Source: Pontederia crassipes (taxonomy: Eukaryota > Streptophyta > Magnoliopsida > Commelinales > Pontederiaceae). From it: DNA of 64,000 nt. Location of the stretch: assembly GCA_030549335.1 (NCBI GenBank), contig CM060198.1, positions 52,636,995 to 52,700,994 of the forward strand, read 5' to 3'. How positions within the stretch are numbered: the stretch's first letter is position 1; every line of letters starts with the position of its first letter. The notes under the pieces are model-generated. The model was not told the DNA's origin. It searched no databases and saw nothing but the letters and a program-made list of their open reading frames with translations. The position numbers and the translations under genes are program-made. This document shows, one piece after another, positions 6,366 through 52,151 of this stretch.

Positions 6366-9300
6366 TTATGTTACTCTTTCGAAAGCGCCGCCGACGCCGA
6401 CCTGCATATGAAGCCATTCAGTAGCAGAACCCTGTCCATATTCCCTTGTTGTTGCCTGGGAATTGAACGCCAAGCTAGAAGCAGTATCATATGTCTCAGC
6501 ACCAAACTGAGGAAAGAAAAACTAAACGTTAGATTGATTTTTAGTGACTAATTAGGCATAATCCACAATTATCTCAGTTATAACAAAAAAGTAAAAAAAA
6601 AAAAAAACAGAACCCCCCAAAGAGGGACTTCATGGCGGAGGCACATTGCATGAAGCCAAAACAAAAGTCATCCATAGTAAGTGTTCCTCTGAAAAAAGTC
6701 AGTGTTAAGTTAGCATTTGTTAGTTGCACTGTGGTTATGAAGAGCACTAACAATCCTAAACGTATTGCTAAAGTTAGTTGCAAATTTTTAAAAATGGCAA
6801 GATGTTACAAGTGTTCATTTAAGTTACAAGTTTCAGTTACACACCCCCCAAAGAGAAAGATTTCATGAGTGTTCATTTAAGTTACAGGCTTTATCTTTTC
6901 TCATTTAGGTACAAATTTTCTAATATGATGTCATATACTTGTCCAGTAGCCACAGCTTACCGAAAAAAAAAACTCTCACAGCGCATGGTCCACCTATTGG
7001 TATCACATCCATATCACCATGTTTGTTAATAAAAGCTAGTTTATCATCATGACATCATTTGTGCAGTATGTTTAGTCATATCTTAGGCATCAAATTCTAG
7101 TTGAGAATTATAAGAAGATGAATAATCCAAATCATCAATAAAGTGTTACTTTAAACTAGCACCATGCTTACTTAAGCAGCAAGTTCAGTGAGTGAGTGCG
7201 AAAAAATTCTATGATGTGACCAAAAACATATCAGATGATGCATTGCTGCCATGAAAGTTAACAGAAATAACAAAGATGCAAGAAGCTCACATTTTTTTCT
7301 TTTCTTTTTTTGGAAGGAAAGGATCACATATGTGACATGTTATGTAGGATGGTACAAGAAAATTGATATGTTTAGGTTCTGTTTGCTTGGATGAAAATAT
7401 CTTCCCGGTTTTCTTGTGTCTGGCAATCAAGAACATCTTGATCAGCAATTGACCAAGAAGTTGGATACAGGGAAGATATTTTCCACTTCTGAAGAAGGAA
7501 AACATTTTCCCTCTTGGTCCTTCTTCAATGCTATAAGTATAAAAAGGAATTATATGTAGTTGTAATATAACGTTGTATTTGGTTAGACACAAGCTTGGTG
7601 GATGATTTTTGGATATCTATTAGACACCAGGGCATGATGCAGGATATCCGACGATGTTACCACTTGCATTTTGCATTTATATGGGCAATATGGAATTACT
7701 GGGTGTCTTTGGATGGAAACTACATTCAAAACAATCAACAACAAAGCCTTATCCCACTAGGTGGGGTCGGCTACATGGATCATACGACGTCATATTCGTT
7801 GATCCATGTTCATGAGATTCGACAGGGTTTTACGCTGGCTGTCGGGGCCTAACACAACCCTCCTCCTTTATCCGGGCTTGGGACCGGCTATAAAACATAG
7901 GCGGAGTTGGAAACTACATTATGCAAATAAATTTTTTTTTGAGAGCCATTATGCAAATAAAATTGTTTTGTATGCTTGTTCTCATTTGCAAGACTGGCTG
8001 TGGTATTGTAAGCAACAATGTACATATCCTCTTGTCTCTATCTCAAAAAATAAAAAAAGAACTGGATGTCAAAAAAATGCTTTCTCCGAAAAGTTTTTCT
8101 GTTTTCCTCTGCAACTTATTTTCGATGAAGTAAATTGCACCTTAACCACAAAACTTAAGGCTACCTGACAAGGAATCAATAATAGTTGCACCCCAACAAA
8201 TCAATGTGATCTGTTATTCAAGGGATGGTGGTCCAAAGTATATGTTTAAGCTTTGAGTAGAAAGAGAACAAGTAAATAAGTTTAATGCCATTTTGTGAAC
8301 TAACAAAATGCGGAGAGTAACATCACCAGCAGGACAGAAAGATAAAAAAACGTGGTTCCTCTAGTTCACGCAATATTTTTTTCTTGAGACGAAGTTCAAG
8401 CAATATATTCTTCATCAGTTTCTTGTGATTTTTTTTGAAGAGGCGTCGCTTGTGAAATTGACATACATACAAAGTTAATTAGCATCTTGCACCAGTCAAC
8501 TTACATCTTTGGGAGGGAAGACTTCGATTCCTGAGTTAACACGTGAATTAACAGCTTCAAGTTTCATAGATAGGAACTACAAATTCAGAGACACAATTAA
8601 ATTCAGTTGAAACAACTACAAGATAAACATAAGATAATACACACTGTATAGGAGAAAAATATACCTCAACCTGACGCTGCAAAGCCTGTATATAATTTAT
8701 GATCTCATCAAGAACCGATGCTTTGCCAATTACCTGATTAGAGGATAATTCGTATAAACAATAGTTGGAGAGTTTTGTCTACGATAAGACATAGTAAATG
8801 CATTGACACATGATTAAAATAGTCATGCACCTTGTTACATCCTGGAACCAGATCTTGAAGAATCTTCATTCGCTCACTTATCTTTTCTCTCCTTGCCTAT
8901 TAGAAAAGAAATAAGTAATATGACAACTCAAAGATGATTTCATTACCAAAATAAGACCTCAACATTTGATAATGTATCGGTTTATTCTAGAATTCTCAAG
9001 GTTTACACAGTAAGATATGCAAGTATTCTTTACAAAAAAGGACACGCAAGTATTGAGCCACTAATAATTGTTCTCTCTCATCTTATAAGGCAGTCAAAGG
9101 ATTCTTCAGCCAAAACTAAAGTTAAAAAAGAAGAGTTCAGAAACAATTTTTTGAGAGGGAAGAGTTCAGAAACAATGTCATGGCAACAACGCTAAATATG
9201 CTTACCCTTTCCGCCAGGCTATGGCTGTCTGTTGCTTGACCCCTTCTTGCTCTAACATGAATGTAGTCTTGCTTTGGTGGCTCAGTAAGTTGAGGATTTT

Positions 9301-11549
9301 GATCAGATAGTTTGTTACAAGTGCCAGAACTTGCCTCAATCTCAGTTTTAATGTTACCATTATCATCGGTACATTTAACAGCTTTGAGACATTTAACTTC
9401 GGTATCAGTCTGCAAAAAGGAAATCTTCACTCAAAGGACAAATATAGGAACTAGTTGTCCCAGTATATATTTTGTATGGACATGTAAATAGAAGTTCAAA
9501 CTTGAGAAATTCTAAGAGTATGAATAATGTACAAACGCTGCAAATAAAAAATCATGAAACACATGGTTATCAGTACTAGAGATATCAACAGGAAGTTATA
9601 TATCAAGTCCGGGAAAATGTGGAATAGTGCAAGATGAAAGAAAGAATCCATGCACAGTAATGGTGTGACCATATATTGTTCATATAACAGAAACAACGTG
9701 GACATAGATTTGTAAGAAAGAGAAAAATAGGAATATAGTTAAAAGTAAAACATTGCAAACATCAACCGTGAGATTGTTTTGGCAGTTACATATTTTTTTA
9801 CTATCGTCAAAGCCTTTCCGATATATTATTTGAAACTCCTGAGGACATTAGGATATGTGAGTTTGAAGTAACACGATGCAAATTCCAGACCACCACGAGA
9901 AATAAAAATCAGGCTTGTAAAAGATTTTTTCTATCGTCAGTCTCATATAGGCGATGCAAACTCCGCCTATGTTTTATAGCCGGTCCCAAGCCCGGATAAA
10001 GGAGGAGGGTTGTGTTAGGCCCCGACAGTCAGCGTAAAATCCTGTCGAATCTCATGAACATGGATCAACGAACTAATAGAGCGGAATGACATCGTATGAT
10101 CCATGTAGCCGACCCCACCTAGTGGGATAAGGCTTTGTTGTTGTTGTTGTCGTCGTCGTCGTCAGTCTCATATAGGTATATATTTGAAACATACGGATTT
10201 GTAGTATGCCTTCCTTAAATGAAGATAAGATGAACTATTATAGAAAACCATGCAATTATTGAACTATTTTTTTATTACTGCTCCTACTTTGTTCTATGTA
10301 GTATCTTCGATTATTGTGTTGGCCAAGGACATTAATTTATGTAAACAGAACAAAAGAAGAAGCCTATTAGAAATCACTAATTAAAGGAAAAGTATCCAAT
10401 GACTGGTTCCAATAAGAAGAGTAGATCAAATAATTTGGAGTCCGATTAAAAAAGGAAGAGGAAGGCCAAGGCGGACACTTGGCGAACTAATAGAGCAAGA
10501 TCTATTGGTGAATAATATACCGAAAGGTTTGGTTACTAATAGAGCGGAATGACGTCGTATGATTCATGTAGCCGACCCCACCTAGTGGGATAAGGCTTTG
10601 TTGTTGTTGTTGACTGGTTCCAAATAAAAGGTACTTTTCATGAAACAGAAAGAAAAATTTGAATGTACCATTAAACTTTTTATTGCAAACTAATATTGTT
10701 TATTTTTACGAAGGGAAGAAGGATGCCCAGAAGCTGCTAGTAATCCATAGACTAGTAGAAATGTTGAAGTGTCTCCATCAAGAAGAAATCAACATTTATA
10801 GCAGCTTCAGAATCAACAAATACATAGTCCAGCTAACAATGTCGAGCAGAAAACAAGTAATCACAACTCAGAAATATATAGAGGTCACCCACTCAAAATC
10901 CTCTAACGACTAGGCTATAACGAAGAACCTTCACTTTCTAATAATTAGATCACAACAAAGCTTCACGGAAAAAAAACCACTTTGCGGCATTCAGTGAAAG
11001 CATTAATTGATCACATTACGTTTTTTTCGAGGTAAATTAATCACATTATTATGTTCAATCCATATTTCATTTTTATCTGAGAAGCTCTTTAGGCAATATA
11101 TTTTTTGGGGAACTTTAAGCAAGATAACCATTAGGTACTCTAATTCCCAACTTGAAGCCTTCGCGGGGGCATCAACTAGGACCAAAATTGTCCAAACTAG
11201 AAACAGATCACAACTCGAGTTTCGCGCACTGTGCATCTTTATCCACGGAGAGAATACAGGAACCTAATGAAGCTCAAAAGGAGCGCGAAAGGAGTACCAG
11301 GTCATTGCCGCTACTGTTTGACGCGAGCTTCGAAGACTCGTCCTCCGACAACCCCGCGGCCGAAAAATCCCTCCTTTTCCTCCTCCCGGCCGCCGCCTTG
11401 CCCCCACCGCTTTGCTCCGTCACTGTCGACTCCTCCGCCGACGCATCCCCGCCCATCCGACCCATCCTGCTGAAAGCCGCCGGCAGCACTCCGCCCATGG
11501 GGAACTGCCACATCTCCGGCACCGGTGTCACCAACGACGGCGGATCCAT
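6366..11549 (-). CDS. BHLH79: bHLH transcription factor, bHLH79/BIGPETAL-like
   Basis: Six minus-strand exons, all phase 0: 11298-11549, 9206-9409, 8831-8896, 8665-8733, 8505-8576 and 6366-6506, giving 267 residues. The start MDPPSL and the early EMWQFPM and EESTVTE phrases match the bHLH79/BPE group. The basic region [20 protein letters not shown] (from residue 140) carries the H147-E151-R155 triad expected for G-box binding. Helix-loop-helix follows, with [11 protein letters not shown] and [17 protein letters not shown] split exactly at the two small exons as in the family, then [12 protein letters not shown]. The C-terminus keeps the group signature EWLHMQV. Members are nuclear dimeric regulators of cell expansion and growth; the specific target is not known here. 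Intron 1 (9410-11297) and intron 5 (6507-8504) contain RTE-related retroposons. Exon 1 is very GC-rich and the rest is not. Confidence 0.88.
7727..7907 (-). mobile_element. RTE-tail SINE-like retroposon, copy 1 (bHLH intron 5)
   Basis: On the minus strand it begins AACTCCGCCTATGTTTTATA and ends in the tail GTGGGATAAGGCTTTGTTG. It is bounded by a 13-base duplication TGGAAACTACATT at 7714-7726 and 7908-7920. It lacks about 12 bases (ATCATCGAGCGG) present just before the shared LINE-like tail in the other copies. It lies in the sense orientation relative to the host gene. Confidence 0.88.
9952..10158 (+). mobile_element. RTE-tail SINE-like retroposon, copy 2 (bHLH intron 1)
   Basis: It has the same 5' start (ACTCCGCCTATG) as the copies at 7727 and 21531. 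Its tail ends in TTG repeats that drift into GTC repeats. The 18-base duplication TCGTCAGTCTCATATAGG is perfect at 9934-9951 and 10159-10176, so both ends are exact. About seven extra bases (CGATGCA) precede the common 5' start. It is antisense to the gene. Confidence 0.92.
10413..10610 (+). mobile_element. 5'-truncated RTE LINE 3' end (bHLH intron 1)
   Basis: This copy matches the last about 200 bases of the LINE at 17542-20092 (from AAGAAGAGTAGATCAAATAA onward, nearly identical), including the end of its reading frame and the TTG tail. It is flanked by the 13-base duplication TGACTGGTTCCAA at 10400-10412 and 10611-10623. It represents an ordinary 5'-truncated LINE insertion and, unlike the SINE-like copies, carries LINE coding sequence. 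Confidence 0.93.
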
Positions 11550-11952
11550 CTCCGAGGAGTGGCTCCGACCGGTTCGATTCTTCCGAAATCGGGGACGCCT
11601 AGCTCAGAAGTGCATAGAGATCAGCAGATCTGTGCGGCACCAAGAAGAGGGAGGGAGCTCCGAGAGTGAGCAGTGGTATTCTACTGGCTTGAAGAGTGTA
11701 GAGAGGAGAGTAGATGTTGACTGCCTTGGATTTGCCCACATGGTGTTTGGTTCGGTTCCCCACTGTAGCATTTAATAGGCGCCCCAGCGCGAGCGCCGGG
11801 CGCGAGCAGTCCACGCCAGCCGCTGAGCGAGCGATCGACCGCTGCATTGTCACAGCCCCAAGTCGCTTTCATCACTTTTTTTAATCAGATGATTACACGC
11901 GCAGATCTCTCTTTACTTTTTATAATAATAATAATAATAATAATAATAAGGA
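11550..11952 (-). promoter_or_regulatory. 5' UTR and proximal upstream region of the bHLH gene
   Basis: GC-rich DNA continues to about 11860, consistent with a 5' UTR and core promoter for the minus-strand gene, then ends in a TAA microsatellite (about 11925-11950). No confident TATA element was identified. A transposon-like inverted-repeat element lies immediately beyond. Confidence 0.35.
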
Positions 11953-12928
11953 TTTAATGTTGGTCCTGCCCCTCCCTTCTCTTGCATCCATTCGATGCAT
12001 GATCGACGGATGCCAGAGGAAGGCGTGGTTCACTGTTTATGAGTGCGTAGTTTGATTAATTTTTTCAACCGAGTCGAGTATGTGCAAGCGGTTCAGTCTG
12101 TTTGCAAATGACGCATTTGTTTTCTCTCACAATCTGCCCTAGCGAACTCGGATCCCGTCATCATATGCCGGACATCCATTGCCCTATGCCCTACACGTTG
12201 TGAGAACAAAGGAGGGGCTTTCCTTCGCTCGACGCTGCGAAGCTCGACTTCTGGAACGAAGCATCCGTCCTTGCTCGACGTCGTTGGAACTCAGATTTCA
12301 CCACCATACGCCGGATGCCCTTGCACTACACTGTGAGAATGACGAAGGCATTTCCCTTCGTCCGGTGCCGCTACAGTTGGAACTTGAATCTCATCACCAT
12401 TACCACTACGCTCTACGTTGTGAGAATGAAGAAGGTCCTTCCCTTCGCCCGAAGCTGCCAGAATGAAGCATTCACCCTTCATTCGACGTCGCTGCAGCTG
12501 GAACTCGAATCCTGTCGCCATACGTCGGACTTCCCTTGCGCTATACCCTGAGAACGAAGGAGGCGCTTCACTTCGCCCTATGTCGCTGCAACTGGAACTC
12601 AAATCCCGTCGCCATACGTCGAACTTCCCTTGCCTACGCCATGAGAACAAAGGAGGCGCTTCACTTTGCTCGATGCCGCTGTAGTTGGAACTCAAATCCC
12701 ATCACCATATGCCGGACGCCCTTTGCCCTACGCCCGACATCATGAGAACGAAAGAGGAAAGTGGAAAAATTAGTCTAAACCAGTTGAAAAAATTAGTCGA
12801 ACCACACACTCATACACAGTGAACCGCAGTGACCTACACCTTCCTATGGCGTCCGTCGATCATGCATCCAACGAACGCAAAAGGAGGGAGGTTGTTCCTG
12901 CCCTTTGAGGAGGCTATACCAACATTAT
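11953..12928. mobile_element. Long-TIR element with minisatellite core, inserted in TAA repeats
   Basis: The two ends are imperfect inverted repeats of about 115-145 bases. The left arm (about 11954-12070) reads ATGTTGGT, then GATGCATGATCGACGGATGC, GGTTCACTGT, TATGAGTG, TAATTTTTTCAAC. The right arm (about 12783-12928), read in reverse complement, gives the same words in order. TAA/AAT microsatellites lie in the same orientation outside both ends, which suggests insertion into a TAA tract. The interior (about 12130-12750) is a degenerate tandem repeat of about 92-95 bases. No transposase frame is present. A PIF/Harbinger-like (TAA target) or foldback/Mutator-like non-autonomous element are both possible. 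Confidence 0.75.
12130..12750. repeat. Degenerate minisatellite, about six units of 92-95 bp
   Basis: Each unit contains the phrase GGAACTC(A/G)AATCCC(G/A)TC followed by CCATA(C/T)G(C/T)CGGA, then CCCTTGC, TGAGAA(C/T)(A/G)AAGG and TTC(A/C)CTTCG. Units begin near 12143, 12287, 12379, 12498, 12592 and 12686; the first interval is longer. The open frames here on both strands are translations of the repeat, not genes. Confidence 0.8.
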
Positions 12929-12959
12929 TAAAAAAAATAAATAATAATAATAATAATAA

Positions 12960-14461
12960 TAAAATAAGTTTAATGAGCGCGTGAAGTATTTTTCGTATGC
13001 AGCGCGTATCCAACGATTTTAGATATATTTTTATTTATTTTTTAATATATTTTTTCATTAATAATTTTGAGGATTGTGATAACAAAAATACAACTCAAAT
13101 CATTAATAACAATTATATTCATTATTTTTATTTTTTTACGAACTTTTGCATATAATTATATTTCATAATAGATATAACCATTTTATACGACTTCTTATCT
13201 TATAAGCTTATTTTTTTATTATCATGAATGATCTTCTAAACTATTAATAAATAAAAATATCGAAAAAAATAAAGGAAAGCACACGTAAAATCGCTTGACA
13301 TGCGCTCTCATTTTTACCTAATAATATTTAGAGTTTTTCCTTCCACTAATATAATTCACTTGCAAAATAATATGGGATTGAAAGAGTTCCCGTCATGTCG
13401 ATTTTTTATTTAAAAATTATCTTTAATTTTTCGAACCAATTTTTAAATTACAAAAAACATGTTAAAATTGTTTAGAAAAAATCATTATCTAACGAATTAG
13501 TTTTTTTAACCTTTATTTTAATAAATTAATAAATTAATGTTAATATTTTTATAACTAAGTATATGATATAGTATTAGAACTATTAAATTAGAGTTTATAG
13601 GAACATATTAACTATAAAAAGCTATTATACGAGTGATAAAAAATAATTATGAATTAATTATATAAATAAAAAAATGATGTCAATTAATTATACTTGCTAC
13701 ACGTTTTCTACGTATCATATATTCAAATTTATGTTTATATAATATAGTATGTGAAATATAAGAAATAAAGTTGATAATTCCACCTTTGGACTTTGAGATC
13801 AAAACACTACAAAACAAAATTTTTTTCCGTAAATATGATTCGACAATGAAAATTCTCGTCCGACCAATCAGAACTAATATGCTTTGTTGTCCTAATTATT
13901 GCTGACATCATATTGATGTTTTTACTAGGTTTTCTTTTTTTAAGTTTGAAAGAAACTCGTATAAAACAAATTGGAAAATGAAATTAAAAAAACCCCAAAA
14001 ATTTTTATATTTTTAATTATTAGTTTACGTTATGTTATATTAATTTTAAATTTCATATATCGCACCATGAATGCCCAAAATTCGAAGAAAAACTGATGCA
14101 AACAACACGAATTTTAGGCCATCAAAATCATTTAAGAAAAAAAAGAAACACATAGCAAAATTATTTGAGGAAAAGACGAAATATAAAAAAAATATGGAAC
14201 ACCTAAAAAATTAAAATCTAAAAATAAGAGACGAGACGGAACAAATAGAAAGGGTTTTAATTTCTCATTTCGAAATTCCCATAATGCCCTTCTCTGTAAC
14301 AATTCCTTCGTCTCTTTTTTTTTCTTTTTTGCTCCCTTTTACGGCCTCCGCCTCTTCGCCGTGCCGTCTCCTCCTCGCCTCCTGCTCCGCCGTCGATTTC
14401 TCCTGTTAAGGCCACCCTTCGCCGACAGATCTCCCCCTTAAAACCCTCGCTTCGAGGACCC
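12960..14461. other. AT-rich spacer and DDR4 upstream region
   Basis: From 12960 to about 14250 the DNA is AT-rich with no supported gene or repeat. GC content rises from about 14340, giving a CT-rich 5' UTR that leads into the DDR4-like start codon at 14462. This is one half of a divergent promoter region of 2.9 kb shared with the bHLH gene. Confidence 0.45.
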
Positions 14462-17400
14462 ATGTCCTCCGACGACTTCCCCTCCCCGGCCCCTCCCCAG
14501 GAGGAGCAGCGTAGATCCTCGCCGCCGGCCGAGGCCGCGCCGCCTTCCCCCCCGCCGTCTAGGGCCGCCGTCGATCCCTTTCCCAGAAAGTCCCCACGCT
14601 TCCCTCGCGCATGCAACACCCGCCCCTCGTTCAAGCCCGCTCGGCTGCCGCCGCCGCCGCAGCAGCAACAGCAACAGCAGCCGGAGCGCCGGAAGTCCGC
14701 GCGGCTGGAGAAGGAGGAGTCGCCGCAACGCGTCCGCGTCGTCACTCCGCTCGTCCAACCTCCGGAATCACCCGCGCTGCTCCCCCGCTGGGAGCTCCGC
14801 TCCATGTGGGAACTCGCCTCCGTCCTCAACTTCCTCCACGTGAGCGCGCAGCCCGACACCATGTGTCCTCCACTCTCCCAACTCGCCCTGGACCCGTAGA
14901 GGTTCCACAACCTTTACGGCGTTCCCCTTGCTTCTTGGGCTTCTATGTGATGTCGTAGTTATTTCTGCTTTTCTACAGGTCTTCAGACCGTTCCTGAACA
15001 TCGGGGTGGAGTTCTCGGCGGAGGAGCTCGAGACGGCGTTAATTACGCCTAATGGTACCCTGGAAGACGTGCACATGCCGCTACTAAAGGTTCATTCTTC
15101 GTTATCCGATCGCAAAGTTCGTAGCATTGTTGTCGTTTTTGCTTGTGTGGTTGTTCTTTTAAAGTTGCATGCTTATTGGTGTATTAAAGATTGTACCTTT
15201 TCCAAGACAGTACTCAAACTTGGAAGTTTGCACCTTTGGTCTTTGAAGTCTGCATTCTTTTCTTGTCTAGATTTTACTCTTGGATGTCCTCCAAGTATAG
15301 TAAAGCTTCTTCCTTTTGGTGATTAATTGCTTTTTAGAGGCATACAATTAAGCATTCTTCAAGATTAAGTTTACCTCCTCACTTAAAGTAAAATGATCAG
15401 TTTTTGTGATTTTTAATATTTAATTTTTTATCTTCAAATTTAAACTAATTAGAATAAGTGACATGCAAAAGAAGTTGATTGCCTTGACTGAGAAATATAA
15501 TACTACTACATACTTCAACCTGAGTGTTTTTTGTGTCTTTGAGTTCATCTACCTAATAGGTTGCTCATATGATGCTATTCTGTTTGCACATTGTCACTGA
15601 TCCCTGTGTTCATCATGCCAGTCAATACCTCCTGTCATTCGAATGGCACTAACACGTGCTACATGGATTACAGTTTTATGTAGGAAGTTAAGAGATTGGT
15701 GGTATTGGGTACGTGTCTTACATTACTGTCTTCCATAGCAATCATGGAATAATATTCATGGGGGAAAATAATCTAATCAGAATACGGATGCAGGTTGCTG
15801 ATGGTGAGATTCCTATTGTTGCATCCCAGGGGTAAGTGTTTTAGCATTTGAAATTCTAAGTTTCTGAACTTACACTGTAACATTATTCAGAATTTTAACT
15901 TGTCAGCATGGAGGTTGAGACATATAAAAACCTTGAGCCTGGAACACGTGTGCGGATTCTGAAAGCCCTATGTGACATTCGTGTTGAGGTATCAACATGG
16001 TGATTATAATTCTCTAACTTGTATTTAGTCTTCCTATTAATTATATTTTTTTATGGATATTTTTTTTCTATCACAAGCTATTTTTTTGCTCACAAAATTG
16101 GCATAGGGGAAATATTGGAGATTAATAACAATGCTGGATTCAATGGGTCTAACAATTCAGAAAGTATACTATGATATCGACATTTTTTTTTTGAGAAAAT
16201 AATGATATCTATACATTTTTTACTAGTGATCATGATCTAGTACTCATTCACCAGTTAATTATACCAGGCTTGATCGTTAATGGTTACGAGCCAAACCTAT
16301 GTATTTATTTGCTACTTAGAACTTCATCATGATTTAGTCAATGTTGAATCTTTATCTGATGACTACTTTTTTCTTGACGATATTTCAAAGAATTAACTTT
16401 TGGTTTTGGGATATGATACTTTGCAGCAAGAGGATATTCGAAATTTCATTGACAATTCCATAAAACGTCGCATCCAACTTCCAGCATTTCGCAAAGAGCG
16501 AGTTGGTGGTGATGCTCATGGGATATCTTACTGGTAGTGTGACTTCATAGTTGCCTTTGGAACTGGAAAATCTGCTAATGTTGTTGACTTTCCTTCCTAG
16601 TAAATCATGTTGGCATCTTCTTCTATCCTGATTTGACAATGTATCAACTTCTGCATCTATTTATTATTAGGTATGAAGATGATCCTATTATTGGCCATCG
16701 GTTGTATCGTGAAATTAGGCAGGTCGAGATAAAGAAGAGAACGAAGCGGTCTTCAGTTACTCCACTTGTATCTTACCAATGGGAAACAGTGGCGACCAAT
16801 TTGGATGAGTTTCAAGATGTTTCTGTGAGTTTCTAATAGTCTTTTTTAATCTACGTATCCCTTTATGTTTCACCTACCTTTCCATTTTTAAGAATACTTT
16901 TTTAAAACAAAGTTGTTTTATTTTAGGGGAAGCAGACAAGTTGTAATCTATATTGTTGAATAGGATCATTAATGAGAACATGATCCACACGGAACAAGAC
17001 TGAAAACCCTAAGAAAAGGAAATTTATTGAACTTTACGAAATTTTAAATTTGTTATTTTCAGGCCATACTCCGGCATATCAACAATCTGCATGTTCACTT
17101 TCATATCACTATTGAATGGATATTTGAGAATACCTAAGTTCTTTATTTTTCATTTTGGCAGCGAAAGTCTCTGTTCGTTTAGGTGTCATTGACCTATATT
17201 ATTAGGTGTATGAGATAACGAGGCTTATTATTTTGTAGATGTGTGTGAATGATGTCAAGCGTCAACAGCCTTTTACTGAAATCTTTTCTGATTCCCTCAA
17301 AAAAAAAAAAACTGACTGTTGAGGATTTCCTAGAGAATTGTCTCTTCTAAAAGTTCTACTGTTAGATGATATTTGTTGATCATTAACTTGTAAAATTAAT

Positions 17401-20400
17401 TCCGACTTGTTAAAAAAAAATCTTCTCAAAAAAAAAATTTGTAAAATTCACTTAGTCTTAGGGAAGGTAATGATGCGGAAGGAAGAATGGGGAAGGAAAT
17501 GAAAAAGAATGAAGGTGAAATAATTTGCGTTATTTGGATGACATGACTAGGGAGAAGGAAGATGGATGAAAGAAAATTGATATCTTATTTGAAAGTATAC
17601 CAACAACCGAGAAAGTTTATATTGGGGGAGACCTTAATGGACATGTTGGTAAAGAGGCAGGACCACATGCAAGGGTTCATGGTGGTTTTGGTTTTGGGGA
17701 GTTGAATGAGGAAGGACAAACTATTATTGATTTTTCTTTAGCATACGACCTTAAGATTATCAACACTTGTTTTAGGAAGAGAGAGGAACATTTAATCACA
17801 TACAAAAGTGGAACTCATAGGTCTCAAATCGATTTTTTCTTGATAAGAAATACTGATAAAAGACGTTGCACTAATTGCAAAGTAATTCCTGGGCATGGAG
17901 TGACTACACAACATAGATTGTTAGTTCTTGATATGCAAATAAAATGTATAAAACCAAAATCCCGAACAGTTTTTGATCGAAAGATCAAGTGGTGGCAGTT
18001 AAAGGGGGAGAAGCGAGAGACTTTTAGAAGTAAGTTATTAGAGGAAAGTGTGTGGGAGTTAGAAGGAGATGCTAGTATCATGTGGAAGAATGTGGCAAAA
18101 AAGGTTGAAATGGTTGCTAAAGTCATTTTAGGAGAATCAAAAGGTTTTGGACCACGAGATAAGGAGACTTGGTGGTGGAATGAGGAGGTCCAAGAAAAGG
18201 TGCGTAATAAGAAGAATTGTTTCAAGGCGATACACTTGGACAATAGTTCTGACAATTGGGAAAAGTATCGTTTGGCGAAAAGGGAGGCTAAGAAGGCAGT
18301 TAGTGATGCTCGTGCTAAAGCATACGAGGGGTTTTATAAGGAGTTAGGGACAAAGGCGGGTGAACAAAGGATTTACAAGATTGCAAGGAACAAAGAGGAG
18401 TCGAGAGATTTGGATCAAGTAAGATGCATAAAAAATGAAGTTGGCAAGGTTTTAGTTACTGAAGGAGATATTAAGAACAGATGGGAAGAGTATTTCTATA
18501 AGCTATTTAATGATGGATGTGAAGGTTCGCGTTGTGATTTGGAGGACTTGACAGTTAGCGAATGTGAGCTTAATAGGTCATTTTATCGTAGAATTAGAGT
18601 CTCGGAGGTTAGCGAAGCTCTTAAGAAAATGGAGAATGGTAAAGCCGTTGGACCGGATGGTATACCGATTGAAGTTTGGAAATGTTTAGGAGAAAAATGT
18701 GTGTTGTGGTTATGTAAACTATTTAATGAGATTTTACGGTCGAAAAAGATGCCTGATGATTGGAGATTAAGTACATTAGTTCCTATTTACAAAAATAAAG
18801 GGGATATTCAGAATTGTGCAAATTATAGAGGGATTAAACTTATGAGTCACACTATGAAATTATGGGAAAAAGTGATTGAGCATAGATTGAGAATGGAGAC
18901 TAGTATTTCTGAGAGACAATTTGGGTTCATGCCAGGAAGATCCACTACGGAGGCGATTTATTTACTAAGGGGGATGATGGAGAAGTATCGAAGTAGGAGA
19001 AGAGACTTACATATGACTTTCATTGACTTAGAGAAGGCGTATGATCGGGTACCAAGGGATGTACTTTGGAAAGCCTTGCAAAAGAAGAGGGTGAATGTTG
19101 CCTACATTAAGGTAATACAAGATATGTACGATGGGGCATTGACTAGGGTTAGGACACCCGGAGGTGAGACAAATGAATTTTCTATAGGAATTGGCCTACA
19201 TCAAGGATCAACTTTAAGCCCGTATCTATTTAACTTAGTTATCGATGCTATAACCGAGAGTATCACAGAGGAGGTACCTAAGTGCATGCTATTTGCGGAT
19301 GATATAGTACTTTTAGCGGATTCAAGAGAAGAGATTAATACAAAATTGGAAATATGGAGAAATACGTTGGAGTCAAAGGGTTTTCGTTTAAGTAGGAATA
19401 AAACAGAATATATGCATAGTAATTTCACAAATAAACAACTTAGAGACGATTTGAAAGTTAGGTTAGGGGAGGATATAATTCCTCAAGTGACAAAGTTTAA
19501 ATATTTAGGATCAATTGTAAGACAAGATGGTGAGATTGATGACGATGTTAATCATAGAATTCAAGCTGGTTGGTGTAAGTGGAGGAAAGCCACTGGAGTT
19601 TTTTGTGATAGAAAAGTACCCAATAAAGTTAAAGGAAAATTCTATCGTACTGCTATAAGGCCAGCAGTGTTATATGGTAGTGAATGTTGGGCTATGAAGG
19701 GACAACATGAATGTAAAGTGGAGGTAGCCGAAATGAGGATGTTGAGATGGATGTGTGGTCATACAAGATTAGATAAGATTAGGAATGACCATATACGTGA
19801 ACGAGTCGGAGTGGCTCCTATTAGTGAGAAAATGGTAGAGAATCGTTTGAGATGGTTTGGTCATGTTCAGAGAAGACCATTAGATGCGCCAGTAAGAAGA
19901 GTAGATCAAATAATCTGGAGTCCGATTAAAAGAGGGAGAGGGAGGCCAAGGCGGACACTTGGCGAACTAATAGAGCAAGATCTATTGGTGAATAATATAC
20001 CGAAAGGTTTGGTTACTAATAGAGCGGAATGACGTCGTATGATCCATGTAGCCGATCCCACCTAGTGGGATAAGGCTTTGTTGTTGTTGTTGTATTTGGA
20101 TGAATGTACCCTTTACATATGCCTTCATATGTTTAATTAAATAAGGTCAAATTATGAAATTTGTTTAATTCAACATTTCCTCTCTTTTATTCTCCATTTT
20201 GAGATTGAAAGGAAAATGGGAGGTTGAAATTTCCTTCCATTCCCCTTCATTAAAAACTCATCCAAACTAGGTTAAATAGTTACCCTCCCCTCCCAACCTT
20301 CACCCTCCTTTCACCCTCAACCAAATGGCCCCGAAAAAAAAAGATGACTGTCAAATGTAGAAGGAAGCATTTTTACAAACAGTTGTTTGCAATAGAGTTT

Positions 20401-23400
20401 CTCAAAAATAAAATTAAATAAAAAAAAGTGAAGTGCATATGTCAATCAACTGAAGATACTTGGACTACAATATGCATACGATTAACTAAGTCCCGTCAGT
20501 ATTTTAATTGGGGAGGTTGATCTGTGATCCCCTACCATTTAATGAATGCACTATTCCTTATCTGAACTGTGCCAGACTGAGTCAGTTCTTTTAGCTGCCA
20601 TGGTAGCCCTTCAACTTGTTAGGCCATGGGGTTCCTTTTTTATGTACTTTATTTTAAGCTGAAGTTCTATCAGACCAGCTCTTGTATTGCTTCATTTCAT
20701 TTCATGATTTTTTATTTCTCTTATGACATATGATGGCTCTCTTATGCTATAGTATCTGTTCATTATTGCCCATGTCAGAATTTTTCTTGATGTACCAATA
20801 TTTGAAGGAATTCTTGAATATTATAAATGTCAGTGTACCACTGCAGTGAGTGTAATATTTTCATCTTGTAATGGAACTACTGGTTGAAACTTGCTATTCA
20901 TGTGAGAGAAAGCTAGGCTTTAATGATGAGATTGCCTATTGGTTGTCTCTCCATCGCTTTTGCTTTTCCATCGTTTAATTCACTTCATACTCCAGGAGAA
21001 ACTTTTTTCAAGTAGCAATAGAGCAGAAGTCTCACTGGGGAAGAAATTAAAGATTGACTTTCTTCCAGAAATTGAGAAAATTCACAGGGTAAATGATCTT
21101 TTACAATTGAACTATTTCTTTGATTTTTACTGCTTCAAAACCATATTTTATTGTTAGATGTTGTAAGAAAATTGTACTTATGGATCTCATTCTCATCATT
21201 ATCTCCATCATCAAGCAGAGTAAAGAAAAACTGTTAAAAAAACAACATAGAGAAGCTCTGCTTCTAGATAGCTATTTAGTGGCAGATGGACTTTCATCAG
21301 GCCGCTCTCTTCGTGATAGGAAACCGGTCACATACACTTTTGGTAAGCATCTAAGCTACAAAATTATCACACTGATCTTCCAATACCACATTCGATTATT
21401 CTCTTTCATATGTGAAAAAAGATTGTTGTCTTTCTTTCTGTATTTTTTGGATTAGTCTTCCTTATTGATGGTGGTGAAGTTAAGAATGTTTAAGTTCATC
21501 CATTTATTTTTTCTTTTTGCTATTCATGCAACTCCGCCTATGTTTTATAGCCGGTCCCAAGCCTGGATAAAGGATGAGGGTTGTGTTAGACCCCGACAGC
21601 CAGCGTAAAACCCTGTCGAATCTCATGAACATGGATCAACGAATATCATCGAGCGGAATGACGTCGTATGATCCATGTAGCCGACCCCACCTAGTGGGAT
21701 AAGGCTTTGTTGTTGTTGTTGTTGTTTGCTATTCATGCACATGTTTCCAATATTCACTGGCTCTTATACTTTTTTCCCGTTTCTTGTTTTTTTTTTCTTT
21801 TTCCTAGCATAGCCAGCATAACAGTATATGCTGTGTATTTGGCTGGCACAATGCCAGCCAGCTGCTGATATCCTTTGTGCTGGTTGCAGAAACTTTGATC
21901 CTTTTGCTGCAAGTGATTCTGTTGAGTTATTTTTTTAGGAATGCATATTGTTTATGCCTGTTGTTTATGTTTTCCAACTTTTCTTTCTAGTTGTTCTAGT
22001 TTGTGTTGTATTTCTTGGTATTTTACTTAACTTTCTGTGACATAAACTAAGGATCGAGTGAAGAGATTTCAAATTCATCTTATGTGAATTTTTGGTGGCT
22101 ATTCAGATGTGATTTATTTTATTTGTTGTTTTTTTACTGTGATCTCAAATATCTCGATTAAACAACTGAATTGGTTAGCTGCTTTTCTGTATTGAAGTGT
22201 CTGCACTCTTAATTTTGTGCTTTATTTGATTTCTCTAGTAGCTGTATTCTGGCTTGAGACAATGCAATATTAATACATCTTTGTTCTGATGTTGGTTTAA
22301 TCATTAATTTGATTAACACATGTTTAATGTTGAGTTCTTTTCAGATGACTATGACCGGTCAATTAATGAGGCTATCAAGGTTACAAAGTAAGTACATGAA
22401 TTTCTTCCATGATGATGCTGTTTCGATGTATCTTGTTCTTCTGTTACTTTGTGTTAATAACTTGTGTTTTATGCCTTCTTTACAAGGAAAAGGCCGAGTT
22501 CTCCTGAAAATGTTGTTAGAAGAGCAAAATCTGATGTGCCTACTAATGGTAAATGGCATGGCTTCTTGCAAACTGATGTGGGATCAGATGGACGGGCTTC
22601 TAACTCAAATGACCATGAGGAAACCAAACTGGATAACCAGGCTGAGCTTCTCGAACGCAGGTATCATTTTTTTAATGTGTTTGTTTTCAAATGTTTATGC
22701 ATCATTAAATACCACTTTGGTTCATTTTCCTCTTTTGGAATTTAGCAATCGGCGGAGGAAACGACCTCAGAAATACTCAGAGAAGGATTATGTTGGAAAT
22801 CCATTGGATATTGACATGGGCTTTGATAGCGATGATGACATAGTAGGAGAAGCAATTTATGATGATGAGTATCTGAGAATCCGTAAACAGAGGAAAATGA
22901 TGTCAAGTGGCTCAGATGGGGATGAGGAATATCATTGGGAAGAGGAGAACACAGAAGAGGAAGAGGACGAATATTCATTAAGTACCAGTGACAGAGAAGA
23001 GAACCACCATGATGAGAAGTTTCCTTCTCGCCGTAAGCGTGAAACTAAATTAAGATATGTTGATGAACTCCAGAGAGGCCTCAGGCGCAGTAAAAGATCT
23101 ACACGTCCACGAATTAGTTATAAACAATGTGAGCTGTCAGACACAGATACGGAGTTGGGAAACGTTGGCAAATCAAGTGATATCCATGCACATTTGGATT
23201 CCTCCGAAGATTTGCATCTTTCAACTGCAAGTCAGGATTCTCAGGATGTGCAAGGTGATGAAGACATACCAGAGAACAAAGCAACCCACGAGCATGGGGA
23301 GGATATAGGTAAGGAAGAGAATAACACAGTAGAGAAGTCGGAAGACCAGACAAACACAGATGTAGGGAAAAGAAGATTCCTGGATCTGAATGAACTTGCT

Positions 23401-23463
23401 CCAGGAACTGGATTTGATGATGGCCTGAGCATGAGAGATAAAAATTTGACCTCCAACACATGA
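14462..23463 (+). CDS. DDR4: DDT-domain chromatin protein, DDR4-like
   Basis: Twelve exons: 14462-14839, 14979-15089, 15622-15708, 15794-15831, 15907-15988, 16427-16533, 16671-16824, 20996-21088, 21219-21342, 22345-22387, 22487-22660 and 22746-23463. They total 2109 bases (702 residues) with every phase matching. The N-terminus is Pro/Ser-rich with a seven-Gln run. The DDT domain spans about residues 109-165 (RWELRSMWELASVLNFLH, then VFRPFLNIGVEFSAEELE), followed by the DDR4-type phrases TWITVLCRKLRDWWYW and YEDDPIIGHRLYREIRQVEI. The C-terminal third is highly charged, with an acidic run near EENTEEEEDEYS, basic patches, and a late LDLNEL motif. Arabidopsis DDR proteins are nuclear and associate with ISWI-type remodelling complexes; a DNA-related role here is inferred from that. 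Intron 7 (16825-20995) is enlarged by a LINE and intron 9 holds a SINE-like copy. Confidence 0.9.
17542..20092 (+). mobile_element. RTE-type LINE, 5'-truncated, in DDR4 intron 7
   Basis: This non-LTR retrotransposon copy is about 2.55 kb, in the sense orientation of DDR4. The 11-base duplication TATTTGGATGA occurs at 17531-17541 and 20093-20103. The 5' end is cut within the endonuclease domain. The 3' end is CCTAGTGGGATAAGGCTTTG plus TTG repeats instead of poly(A), typical of RTE elements. The long reading frame has stayed open, so the insertion is probably young. Confidence 0.94.
17570..20032 (+). CDS. RTE LINE endonuclease (C-terminal part) and reverse transcriptase
   Basis: The frame is open for 820 codons after a stop at 17567-17569. 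It has no natural start because the element is truncated. It begins with the end of an apurinic endonuclease domain (VYIGGDLNGHVG). Reverse transcriptase motifs follow in order: GKAVGPDGIPIEVWK, YRGIKLMSHTMKLWEKVIE, RQFGFMPGRSTTEAIYLLRG, the motif A FIDLEKAYDRVPR, the motif B HQGSTLSPYLFNLVIDA and the catalytic MLFADDIVLLAD. The C-terminal region carries RWFGHVQRRP and [18 protein letters not shown]. The stop falls after NRAE. In other plant copies of this family the frame continues as WRRxIHVADPT, and that stretch is still readable here past the stop. The protein would prime reverse transcription at a nicked target, but the truncated copy lacks most of its endonuclease. Confidence 0.92.
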   Translation, partial: KKIDILFESIPTTEKVYIGGDLNGHVGKEAGPHARVHGGFGFGELNEEGQTIIDFSLAYDLKIINTCFRKREEHLITYKSGTHRSQIDFFLIRNTDKRRCTNCKVIPGHGVTTQHRLLVLDMQIKCIKPKSRTVFDRKIKWWQLKGEKRETFRSKLLEESVWELEGDASIMWKNVAKKVEMVAKVILGESKGFGPRDKETWWWNEEVQEKVRNKKNCFKAIHLDNSSDNWEKYRLAKREAKKAVSDARAKAYEGFYKELGTKAGEQRIYKIARNKEESRDLDQVRCIKNEVGKVLVTEGDIKNRWEEYFYKLFNDGCEGSRCDLEDLTVSECELNRSFYRRIRVSEVSEALKKMENGKAVGPDGIPIEVWKCLGEKCVLWLCKLFNEILRSKKMPDDWRLSTLVPIYKNKGDIQNCANYRGIKLMSHTMKLWEKVIEHRLRMETSISERQFGFMPGRSTTEAIYLLRGMMEKYRSRRRDLHMTFIDLEKAYDRVPRDVLWKALQKKRVNVAYIKVIQDMYDGALTRVRTPGGETNEFSIGIGLHQGSTLSPYLFNLVIDAITESITEEVPKCMLFADDIVLLADSREEINTKLEIWRNTLESKGFRLSRNKTEYMHSNFTNKQLRDDLKVRLGEDIIPQVTKFKYLGSIVRQDGEIDDDVNHRIQAGWCKWRKATGVFCDRKVPNKVKGKFYRTAIRPAVLYGSECWAMKGQHECKVEVAEMRMLRWMCGHTRLDKIRNDHIRERVGVAPISEKMVENRLRWFGHVQRRPLDAPVRRVDQIIWSPIKRGRGRPRRTLGELIEQDLLVNNIPKGLVTNRAE
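20104..20340. repeat. Possible MITE end flanking the LINE
   Basis: After the LINE, the sequence ends in a CCTTCACCCTCCTTTCACCC tract followed by CAACCAAATGGCCCCGAAA, a form common at ends of small plant inverted-repeat elements. A purine-rich segment before the LINE (17463-17520, GGAAGG and GAATGGGG words) resembles its reverse complement loosely. The LINE may have inserted into an older MITE; arms were not aligned. Confidence 0.3.
21531..21724 (+). mobile_element. RTE-tail SINE-like retroposon, copy 3 (DDR4 intron 9)
   Basis: It starts exactly at ACTCCGCCTATGTTTTATA and ends in CCTAGTGGGATAAGGCTTTG plus TTG repeats. It is flanked by the 15-base duplication TTTGCTATTCATGCA at 21516-21530 and 21725-21739. 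The 194-base insert is sense to DDR4. Its last about 75 bases match the LINE tail and its first about 115 do not match any part of the LINE copy in this window. Confidence 0.92.
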
Positions 23464-24592: not shown

Positions 24593-27500
24593 CTAGATGC
24601 ATTGTCTCGGACGGAAGTTTTCCTCTGATAAGAGAGAGACGGTGAGCCGCTCCAATCTTTTTGAACCAGGACCAGGACGAAGAATGGATGTTTTCCCCAC
24701 GACCATGCAGGGATCACTGCCATTTTCTCCACTCCCTATACACCATGCTCCAGGAGTGATCATGCCAGGCCGGCGGGATAAGAGCTGGGCGTCTACCTTG
24801 TCAAGCACAGGGTCATCCTTCCTAAACTTGCGAGCAAAAGGAGCATTGCTGTTAACCATTCTTGGCATATGATGGACTGTCAGGTAATGCGGATGCTGCT
24901 TTGGCGGATTGTCCCATGAGATGAAGTGAAGGTCATGATTCACAGTGGTGTTTCGGAATTCCTGGGTATTACAAATGACAGTATGGAAATAACCTTCTGG
25001 TGAGGAGATGAAGTTTGCATAATACATGAGGACAGCTCGGGGAAGATTGTCCCAGCCCCATATGCAGTACTCAATGAAGGTACGGGAGAGTGCCATCCAT
25101 GCAGAACCTGAGACACAATCGGAAGCCACTTCAAAAGTTTTCCATCAAAGAAAATGTCTGCTTGTTGATGTACATCTCAAGGCATAATAGTAACTGCATA
25201 CTAATATCTGTCACTAGTCTTATTTTACATATTCTTGGCTAGTTTCAGTTAAGTGTTCAATTTAACACTGGAACATCAAAACTGAAAGCTAATCTAACTG
25301 AGGATGACTAGGTAGAGAGAAACCTGCAGAGATAAGTTAACTATGGCAGTCGTATAAAGCAGGGCATAAATGAGCTATACCAATTCTAAAATTGAAGAAT
25401 TGATGCCAACTGTTGCGTACATAGACCAAGTAATACGTGTTCCCCCTCTTTAGTCTGTTATTCACTAGTGAAGTGATCGTCATCAAATAAATTCATTGCT
25501 CACAAAACAGCCACAACACTATTATGCAATGGCCAGAGATATGTACCAGGCCAAAGAGGTTACCCTGACAGTGTAACAACTTTCTGATACTTAATGATTA
25601 CTGATTTGAAGGAAATCCACAGAAAATCTAAGTTAATCCTTTATTAAACTCTAATATTTCACGAAGGAATTAACTAATTTATACATGAAGTAATAATATA
25701 TCTTTATTCATCAAAACATACATTTCAAGAGAACCATACAAGAGTTTTTATAGGGATTCTAAACACCCAGTGCCAAATAATTGCGAAGCCAAATAAAAGA
25801 CAAACTCAAATAAAAGAAAATCTAATGAAAGGAAATTAAATGAATGGACTATGCTAAAAAAGACAAACTCAAATAAATAGAGCGGAATGGCGTCGTATGA
25901 TCCATGTAGCCGACCCCACCTAGTGGGATAAAGCTTTGTTGTTGTTGTTGACTATGCTAAAAGTTCATAACTAAACATCGACTATTAGGGTAGAAGGCCT
26001 ATAATTTTACACTTGTCCTAAATCATGGGGGAAGCAGCAATAGGATCTTAAGACATAGATGCTCAATTTGGTCTCATCTGCATTATTGGCAGGAAAGTTT
26101 CTGAAAACGACCTTGTCATGTCTTTCGATATGAAATACTATTCATTCTTTTTTAATAGTAGGATACTACCACTACGAGGGGCATTAGTGATACTTTGGTC
26201 AGAAAATATTGTTTTTTTTATCATATAACAGATTCTTTGACTATGCATTGCCAGCAAGTCGTATGATTCACAATTTCACTCTTTCAGGCGTGCAAGTGTG
26301 TGCGACTGAAAGGACAAAGGATTACATTCAGAGACTCCACGATCACATTAGCCTTAATGCAAGCGAGTACTAGAACTCGTTGCTTCATATTTAGCTTTTA
26401 GATAAAGACCAAGATAACAATAAGCACGGTGGTTCTTCTCAACACAAAAAAATTGTAGTTATATATTCCTTTTAACGCATCTTGGTTTTATATTAAAAGA
26501 CAGGGCTTAATGTTTACATACAGCAGAGAACTTTTGCATATATGTGAAGCAGGTCTGCTGTCATTCATATACTCAATGGGCTCTTATTTATCACACCCCC
26601 CCCCCCCCCCCACACACACACACAAATCACAAAGGAGAAAATATTCCTTTCAATTCGGCGGAAGGAGATCCCCATCCATTTTTACTCACCGAAGAGATAG
26701 CACAAAAGAGAGAGATTCCAATTTTAACATTTAAAGCTCCCTCCCATTTTTCGCTGCACAGTGATCCCTTCCAATTTTACTCGCCAAAAGGAGGCAGAGA
26801 GATTCTAACCAGGCAACAAAGATGTGAGAGTTTCATTTTTTTTTGAAACGGAATTGAGAGTTTCAATTTGGCGTCAATGGCAGTCCCTTCCAAACTTGTT
26901 TGCCAATAGCAGCTCTGTTTTGAATTTTTTCAGTGTAGAGGGAATTTACTTTCATTTTAGCTTGCTGCAAGAATAGAGAAGGTTATTTCTTGCTGCCAGG
27001 AGTTCCACGTACAATTTAGTTTTTTTTAATAGAAAAATTACTTCCAATTTTGCTTGGCAGACAGACTTATTTCCATTTCTGCTAGGAGTGTGGCAAGATG
27101 GAGAGATGAATGAGTGCTTGTCACTGCCATTTTTTCCATAGTATATCGCAGGAGAAAGGAGCTAGGCAAGTGCTATAAAGCCCTTTCTTTTTTCTGAAAG
27201 CATTGATGCATATGCAATTGAAGAACACTCTGTATAAACTTTAAATCCTAAAGGATATTCTTAAAACATAGCCTACCAAAAGTCTCAGTTCCTATTAATG
27301 TTCACAAGAATAGTTCTTTGTTCACAATAGCAAGATTTGTGGCCACTCAGGAGGCTTTAAGAAGAAGGATGTCGAATAACCTACTGGTAAATGCACTAAC
27401 AAATAGGAAGTCCTCAAACATGCATCTAAGTTTCCAGTCAGCCACAAAAACCATAGTGATACTCCATAAAATAAAATTCAAGTTATTAAATGAAAATTTT

Positions 27501-50600: not shown

Positions 50601-52151
50601 GGTTGATTTATCATGATCGATTAGAAAATTGGACGTCCAAAAAAGTTTCGATCGAGAGTCAATAGTCTTCATACCGAAGGATCGCTCCTCCAAATGGGCA
50701 TCCATTCTGAAGTGAACGGGTTGACCACTCGACGAAATTTCATGATCGTTGTATCAAACGTTTGGATGTTTTATTATACCAAACATCCACTATGAACATA
50801 GATTGACCTCTATGATATGATGATGAGAAAGATATTAATCTCATTTAGGTCAGGTGTTCGATCATCAAATCGGTCGTTTGAATTAGATAGAGACTCTCAC
50901 TTTGATCTAATGGACGTCCACTCACTAAATCGGGCGCCCAATGGTCTAGAACATCAGACATCGACTCCATAGACCGGGCGTCCAAAATATACAGATATTT
51001 GTATTTTTTTATTAACAGACGATCTTTCATCAGGATAGGCATTTGAAACTCTCAGATGACCGAGACACCTCTCAAACTTTTACTTTATCAAATGTCCACC
51101 CACTAGACTGGACGCCTAATGATGAAATTCGTTGAGAGAGTTCAAAAAAGAACCAAACATCCATTTTATGGATCAGACGTCAGAAACTCCGACAACAACT
51201 ATATGCATTTCTTTTACTTAATTTGATGGGCATCGAATCTTACTTATCTATTTCATGCATTTTTATATGACCCCTATAGTTGATGTTGATCCAGCTTTAT
51301 CACTTGATTTGCTCTTTATGGTCTAAAGATAGGTTAATGTTAAGGAAAGATAAAGATGTAATATTTGTATTTCCTTTGCCTATACCTATGAATTGGGTGG
51401 AACTACGTAAATATGTTAAATGGAGGGATAAGTAGCTATTTGTACTTGTGCTCCTATTCCTATTATGCGTGACTCCTCCATCTTAAAGAATGAAGATGAT
51501 TTCTATATCATTGTGTGATGCAATCCTCTCCTTTTAAGGGTATGACATTGATCTATCATGGCCTATGGCATGTATTGTACTATTTCGTAAGACACATCCT
51601 TAATAAATCGAGAGCTCTTCCAATAATAATAAGATGACTATATGACTATGATGCTCAATATGGAGGAACCTAGTTACCAAAGGTATAAATATGGAGAAAA
51701 CTAAATTTCCTAATTACTTACTTTCATGATGTTATTTCCCTTCCATTGGGAGAGATAAGGCTCTAAAAGACCTTAATAAGGGTCTATTGATAATTCCCTT
51801 AGAATCAATTTCACTTCTATATTGTTGTACAAAAATGGGCTATGATATTCTTCATAAAGCTCATACTCGGATTATGCTTTATTGTTTATATGATCCCTTT
51901 TATACATGATTACCTAAGTTATGATTTATTAGTGCATATACCTAAAGGGCATGTTTTTATGACTTACTTGTAAACACGTTAAACATTATTGCTTCAGTGA
52001 TTGTTGTTTTCCTCTGTGTTGATCCCTATAGATATTGATTAGCATGTATGGCTTTTTTTGATGTGTATGTGCAGTGTTATGACTCGGGCGTGTGCACATG
52101 GACGGACCCATATGTCGTTATATGATGTATTGTCTTGTATTATGTTGTATG
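50601..52151. other. Repeat-like DNA of unknown family
   Basis: This has moderately repetitive wording (GGACGTCC, GGGCGTCCA, ATCGGGCGCC phrases) and no open frame of note. It may be the interior of the CACTA element or another element, and it is the host into which the LTR retrotransposon inserted: the sequence resumes at 60543. Confidence 0.4.

Follow-up and report, generated by a model that had tools for sequence, protein, structure and literature searches.

The window analyzed here, a 64,000-nt stretch of contig CM060198.1 from Pontederia crassipes, carries three short insertions, named c1, c2, and c3, and three insertions of an RTE-type long interspersed nuclear element (LINE). Each short copy consists of a head, in which a predicted twister ribozyme is found, and a tail matching the 3′ end of the RTE LINE. 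The copies are 91–95% identical to one another, and their pairwise alignments, gaps aside, contain 8 substitutions in 178 positions for c1 and c2, 7 in 178 for c1 and c3, and 9 in 191 for c2 and c3. The copies and their target duplications are located as follows.

7727–7907, minus strand: c1, 181 bp, with a gap of 13 bases relative to c3, located in the loop that the inverted repeats of head and tail enclose.
7908–7920 (on the 5′ side of the element) and partner 7714–7726: target duplication of c1, AATGTAGTTTCCA, 13 bp, exact.
9952–10158, plus strand: c2, 207 bp, with extra bases at 9952–9958 ahead of the predicted ribozyme product and a tail that passes from TTG to TCG repeats at its 3′ end.
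9934–9951 (left) and 10159–10176 (right): target duplication of c2, TCGTCAGTCTCATATAGG, 18 bp, exact.
21531–21724, plus strand: c3, 194 bp.
21516–21530 (left) and 21725–21739 (right): target duplication of c3, TTTGCTATTCATGCA, 15 bp, exact.

Read from the target duplications, the coordinates that a preliminary description of this DNA assigned to the three copies are exact, and its length range of about 180–207 bases and its attribution of a separate target duplication to each copy agree with the measurements. The minus-strand orientation of c1 is absent from that description. Because the three exact duplications differ, and each copy ends in a TTG tail, the copies represent several independent insertions, as expected of a short internally deleted element (SIDE). 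BLAST of c1, c2, and c3 against the window returns these three at full length and no fourth full-length copy, and a 29-base pattern taken from the start of c2 occurs three times in the window at up to three mismatches, compared with a mean of 0.00 in 100 shuffles.

The evidence for a ribozyme in the head comes from a covariance-model scan of the whole window on both strands at E-values up to 1. The complete twister-P1 model (RF03160, positions 1–68) is matched in all three copies, and the scan gives no further twister match.

7854–7913, minus strand: twister-P1 match of c1, 59.1 bits, E 9.4e-11; predicted cleavage between 7909 and 7908, positions beyond 7907 being flank.
9954–10013, plus strand: twister-P1 match of c2, 61.4 bits, E 2e-11; predicted cleavage between 9958 and 9959.
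21525–21584, plus strand: twister-P1 match of c3, 46.2 bits, E 4.6e-7; predicted cleavage between 21529 and 21530.

The four other Rfam matches in the window at this threshold lie away from the elements and far under their own gathering scores, and Rfam gives neither a hepatitis delta virus (HDV)-like nor a hammerhead ribozyme at the elements. The window copies keep most upper-case consensus positions of the twister (31 of 35 in c1 and c2, 30 of 35 in c3); the misses are the base before the cut, three gaps in the optional stem P3, and, in c3, a C48U change. Stems P2 and P4 are fully paired in c1 and c2, where all P3 pairs present also form. In c3, a C-U mismatch breaks one pair of P2 and a G-U pair weakens P4; the ribozyme of this copy is probably impaired. 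Stem P1 forms one of its four pairs in c1, three in c2, and one in c3. A poor P1 would follow from an element that begins at its own cleavage site, since the upstream P1 strand is then flanking DNA that differs from copy to copy, and this stem has been described as dispensable for twister cleavage (PMC6154101; this and the other papers given by PMC number are cited from partial text).

According to the model alignment, cleavage would leave an RNA 5′ end at AACTCC. In c1 and c3, this start lies no more than one base from where the target duplication ends. The predicted product overlaps one base of the c1 duplication and, in c3, the final base of the left duplication, a one-base overlap that is not resolvable because the final duplication base is likewise A. 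The predicted twister cut would explain why the copies begin at the same base. The single shared 5′ start proposed in the preliminary description holds exactly for c1 and c3 but not for c2, in which the predicted cut falls 7 bases inside the insertion. The ribozyme was not recognized in that description.

The tail links the short copies to the RTE LINEs of the same window, which are listed here together with the tail of c3.

17542–20092, plus strand: 5′-truncated RTE LINE with part of the endonuclease (from alignment to the contig L001, described below) and the reverse transcriptase; target duplication TATTTGGATGA, 11 bp, exact.
10413–10610, plus strand: short RTE LINE 3′ fragment; target duplication TGACTGGTTCCAA, 13 bp, exact.
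25876–25949, plus strand: short RTE LINE 3′ fragment; target duplication GACTATGCTAAAA, 13 bp, exact.
21648–21724, plus strand: RTE-derived tail of c3, with the last bases of the open reading frame (ORF) including the stop codon, a 3′ untranslated region (UTR) with a CCCAC-CTA-GTGGG hairpin, and (TTG)n.

In BLAST, the tails of the short copies match the 3′ ends of the three window LINEs at 95.3–97.5% identity over 64 (c1) to 79 bases, close to the 75 or so bases described earlier, so that each copy carries the 3′ end of an autonomous LINE family from its own genome, as a SIDE does. Each of the three LINE insertions starts at a different point of the LINE, a pattern to be expected of ordinary 5′ truncation; the short elements share one start. 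The LINE stop codon (20030–20032) falls within the stretch common to the short elements, which begins before it by 15 bases in c2, 11 in c3, and 1 in c1, where there is a deletion. With the shared stretch starting just ahead of the stop codon, nearly the whole ORF is gone and the 3′ UTR is kept. At this junction, c2 and c3 differ, c2 being the more LINE-like, a difference that might reflect two independent deletions.

The tail hairpin is flanked by GCC and GGC, and the tail core recurs at an RTE 3′ end in L002, a plasmid record resembling a contaminating plant clone. The (TTG)n end of the window LINE points to a flowering-plant host, since (TTG)n or (TTGATG)n is the 3′ end given for all seven flowering-plant RTE families of Table 3 in PMC3747384. 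The shift from TTG to TCG repeats in the c2 tail (10139–10176), next to a target duplication that begins TCGTCAG, suggests slippage at the priming site. A 10-bp inverted repeat spans the deletion junction, ACATGGATCA closing the head and TGATCCATGT lying within the tail, and pairs in the folds of all three copies; the deletion may have arisen with the ORF looped out by this repeat. At the fragment at 25876–25949, 17 bp (AAGACAAACTCAAATAA; 25860–25876) separate the target duplication from the LINE sequence and are a second copy of bases found 63 bp upstream (from 25797), through either a local duplication or a template jump at the 5′ junction.

The head has no counterpart in the LINE copy of the window, as the preliminary description had noted (best scores of 99 and 104, with shuffled heads against L001 averaging 114). 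This comparison could not find a LINE 5′ end, because the long LINE starts inside the endonuclease, its first residue aligning at L001 739 within the L001 endonuclease domain.

A LINE with a more complete 5′ region is found in L001 (1–6113), a contig of a Breoghania metagenome-assembled genome that looks like eukaryotic contamination. It is the sole confirmed relative from a protein scan of bacterial and archaeal assemblies in which 13 stretches matched the pattern. L001 holds an RTE LINE with endonuclease and reverse transcriptase domains, 53% identical to the window LINE protein in the best segment, with query residues 1–705 matched. On its other strand lies a second long frame of 1000 amino acids with a by-eye likeness to endonuclease-reverse transcriptase. 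A twister-P1 match of 63.9 bits at L001 76–155 overlaps the start (142) of the endonuclease-bearing frame, and the c3 head aligns to this ribozyme site with a score of 219, against a maximum of 141 in 200 shuffles. The L001 ribozyme keeps 32 of 35 consensus positions. All P2, P3, and P4 pairs present form in L001 as in c1 and c2, P1 again being poor, and three of these pairs (one in P2, two in P3) show compensatory changes, with both bases differing between L001 and c1/c2 and pairing retained. Past the ribozyme, GCGTAAAA occurs at a near-equal distance in the head and in L001. Conservation of the head as coding sequence was considered and rejected, because the c3–L001 alignment has a net length difference of one base before GCGTAAAAC and the frame is not kept.

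A SIDE would take its ribozyme-bearing 5′ end from the LINE that supplies its 3′ end; here the short copies carry the ribozyme match at their head, and the RTE LINE of L001, from another organism, has the same ribozyme at its 5′ end. Truncated yet catalytically competent twisters are stated to be conserved at the 5′ ends of RTE retrotransposons in a 2020 review that cites the work as in preparation (PMC7761336), and a 2024 paper (PMC11620745) lists twister as one of the ribozymes known to occur in retrotransposons. An origin of the whole 110-base head from an RTE 5′ UTR is suggested mainly by the ribozyme, its position, and the statement in PMC7761336.

Taken together, the short element is best interpreted as an internally deleted RTE LINE consisting of a twister-bearing 5′ UTR, the last few codons, and the 3′ UTR, a reading to which we give a probability of roughly 0.84. 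The preliminary description had proposed a defined non-autonomous element carrying an RTE tail, which agrees with a sharp 5′ end that is exact in two of the three copies. It had read this element as resembling a short interspersed nuclear element (SINE) and had offered, as an alternative, a deletion derivative with the missing 5′ end of the LINE. A SINE with a head from a small-RNA gene is not supported; with a predicted twister in the head and the same ribozyme at the 5′ end of the L001 RTE, the alternative fits better.

Such an element would need no promoter of its own and could be transcribed within host RNA by read-through, or from a LINE promoter. In the cell, the twister would cut the transcript just before AACTCC, giving uniform 5′ ends. 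RTE reverse transcriptase, supplied in trans, would recognize the 3′ tail (GCC, the CCCAC hairpin, GGC, and the TTG repeats), the nicked target would act as primer, and copying would run to the ribozyme-made 5′ end, as in target-primed reverse transcription. Insertion would leave a target duplication. If this is correct, the full-length RTE LINEs of the source genome would carry the same head and would start AACTCCGCC.

A chimera, in which a twister unit of separate origin became fused to an RTE tail and was then mobilized by the LINE, would leave a similar structure. The head is absent from every LINE in the window, and the match to L001 outside the ribozyme is no more than suggestive, both of which such a fusion would accommodate. 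It accounts less readily for the presence of this ribozyme at the 5′ end of the L001 RTE, which belongs to another organism, for the reported conservation of twisters at RTE 5′ ends (PMC7761336), and for the similar spacing of GCGTAAAA after the ribozyme in the head and L001, and we regard it as quite unlikely.

Several observations weigh against deriving the element from an RTE LINE with a 5′ twister. The four twister scores (c1, c2, c3, and L001) are all below the Rfam gathering score of 67.2, and an Rfam scan of the window at gathering thresholds gives no match at all; part of this shortfall comes from the poor stem P1, the upstream strand of which belongs to the flank in the window copies. 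The base preceding the predicted cut is C, A, and C in c1, c2, and c3, not the U of the U–A bond at which twister is described to cleave (PMC6154101). In c2, AACTCC is separated from the target duplication by seven extra bases, CGATGCA, so that the fit is exact in two of three copies. For R2 elements and R2 SIDEs, a variable 5′ junction and jumps between templates have been reported (PMC3414825), and c2 is an exception all the same. All LINE copies in the window are 5′ truncated, with no full-length RTE of this genome among them. Downstream of the ribozyme, the likeness between the head and L001 is weak, its score being reached by 4 (c3), 39 (c2), and 54 (c1) of 2000 shuffles, and the heads of c1 and c2 reach higher scores elsewhere in L001. 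Energy folding, which cannot form pseudoknots such as the two of the twister, gives 5′ parts that fold no better than shuffles (z 0.24 for c3, 0.01 for c2, and 1.10 for L001). Whole elements fold somewhat better (z −1.60 for c3, −1.23 for c2, and −2.41 for c1), through pairings other than those of the twister and helped by the 10-bp inverted repeat and the tail hairpin. Finally, the family is judged from three copies, all within one window.

A length of about 190 bp, a sharp 5′ end, and a LINE tail are also what a classical SINE with a degenerate polymerase III promoter in its head would show, and the tobacco TS SINE shares about 100 bases of its 3′ end with an RTE LINE (PMC3747384). The tests for such a head argue otherwise. 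A tRNA search of the window finds none, and the best A box (8/10) is reached by 1000 of 1000 shuffles and the best B box (9/11) by 132–154 of 1000, consistent with the earlier remark that there are no obvious tRNA boxes. No Rfam family other than twister, and so no 5S or 7SL RNA, occurs at the elements at E up to 1 in the window scan; two chance-level Rfam matches (E 4.7 and 8.5) lie on the other strand of c3. A tRNA or polymerase III origin of the head is accordingly rejected on all three tests, the reading as a SINE with a small-RNA-gene head gives way to the predicted twister, and a classical SINE is very improbable and largely refuted.

As a twister-headed RTE LINE shortened by internal deletion, the element would follow a design known from other LINE clades. 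R2 SIDEs of Drosophila likewise combine a 5′ self-cleaving ribozyme with a LINE 3′ end after internal deletion, vary at the 5′ junction, and spread by the target-primed reverse transcription of the LINE; a 5′ ribozyme and a 3′ end are given as the minimal needs of a SIDE (PMC3414825). They differ in having the HDV-like R2 ribozyme (PMC4035085), a LINE specific to the 28S rRNA gene, and an animal host. The NARTc, NARTco, RIME, and SIDER elements of trypanosomatids are also short and join a LINE 5′ ribozyme to a LINE 3′ end, but belong to another LINE clade and have an HDV-like ribozyme, with Pr77 doubling as internal promoter (PMC4035085).

Elements of the RTE superfamily offer closer parallels in other respects. 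The twisters of PMC7761336 agree in ribozyme class, LINE superfamily, position, and proposed role in 5′ processing; they are announced for the LINE itself, and the part of the review cited here does not mention a short derivative. Bov-A2, MAR4, RTESINE1, and RTE1-N1_LA similarly join an RTE/BovB 5′ end to a 3′ tail (Table 1 of PMC3747384), but they are mammalian, and the cited portion of that paper does not mention a ribozyme. The tobacco TS SINE, with its RTE-1_Stu tail, is likewise from a plant; its RTE 3′ tail spans about 100 bases and closes with TTG repeats, but its head differs in being tRNA-related, with A and B boxes (PMC3747384).

The present copies place a small self-cleaving ribozyme in a short non-autonomous plant retroelement and could be imagined to spread, like a retrozyme, through circular RNA made by self-cleavage; plant retrozymes are described in PMC7761336. 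Each copy has a single ribozyme, however, with no tandem copies or long terminal repeats seen, and ends in a LINE 3′ end with a TTG tail; the ribozyme is a twister instead of a hammerhead. A retrozyme-like element is therefore the least probable of the explanations considered.

What is new in an RTE-derived element of this kind is a twister in place of the HDV-like ribozyme within the known design of ribozyme plus LINE 3′ end. A twister-headed short RTE derivative was not found in literature on twister with retrotransposon, RTE, or SINE, a search that leaves most subscription journals uncovered and draws on partial text, and the head and tail strings occur in the literature full text in one unrelated paper alone. 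By sequence, the cut predicted for the twister falls at the 5′ ends of actual retroposon insertions, a coincidence that bears on the role of twisters in eukaryotic genomes. A ribozyme and a LINE tail may suffice for a plant mobile element; the principle of the R2 SIDEs would then hold for a further LINE clade and a different class of ribozyme. Overlooked ribozymes may be present in SINE-like families whose heads are unexplained, and the Rfam gathering cut-off can miss such copies where, as here, the P1 strand is flanking DNA.

The short copies lie near two host genes, whose exon pieces were joined by hand before the Pfam search. A minus-strand basic helix-loop-helix (bHLH) gene has HLH exons near 8675–9330 (joined pieces match Pfam HLH at 8.2e-11), and a plus-strand gene has DDT-domain exons near 14.7–15.1 kb (joined pieces match Pfam DDT at 1.2e-5). 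On the strand of the bHLH gene, c1 follows the HLH exons at a distance of about 0.8 kb; c2 precedes them by about 0.6 kb and is on the opposite strand. On the strand of the DDT-domain gene, c3 follows the DDT exons at about 6 kb. The frames that would make c1 (6369–6521) and c3 (21111–21452 and 22258–23460) intronic have no meaningful Pfam match, and an intronic position of the two copies is a guess. c1, with P2–P4 intact, is in the sense orientation relative to the bHLH gene, and c3, with its damaged ribozyme, relative to the DDT-domain gene; such damage might be expected if cutting there were selected against. It appears unlikely that RTE LINEs seed host introns with working twisters by way of short derivatives, promoterless copies being spread by read-through and cutting host pre-mRNA, as this arrangement would allow one to imagine.

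The element patterns are unmatched in viral contigs and in bacterial and archaeal genome contigs, collections that may omit the genome of the window itself. A scan of viral contigs with the LINE protein finds no relative, and tblastn with the same protein finds none in phages and 23 records in plasmids. Among the 20 plasmid records listed, NZ_CP104070.1 alone is LINE-like (61% identity); the other 19, at 23–32% identity, are group II intron enzymes where annotated, apart from one cas1 and one record without a feature. BLAST of the element gives a partial tail match in NZ_CP104070.1 and one 25-base chance-level match in plasmids, four 27-base chance-level matches only in phages, and nothing in E. 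coli. NZ_CP104070.1 is also the sole plasmid match of the L001 LINE DNA.

The record NZ_CP104070.1 (1–39760), filed as an Alicyclobacillus plasmid, contains an RTE LINE of plant type that is degraded, shares the tail core, and is 61% identical to the window LINE across residues 275–818; the record has no Rfam match at E up to 0.1. It has IncFIA typing and two listed features, both catA1 gene predictions, and looks like a contaminating plant library clone in a vector. Elsewhere in the window, 52148–54757 and 57919–60541 form a 2.6-kb direct repeat that is 97% identical.

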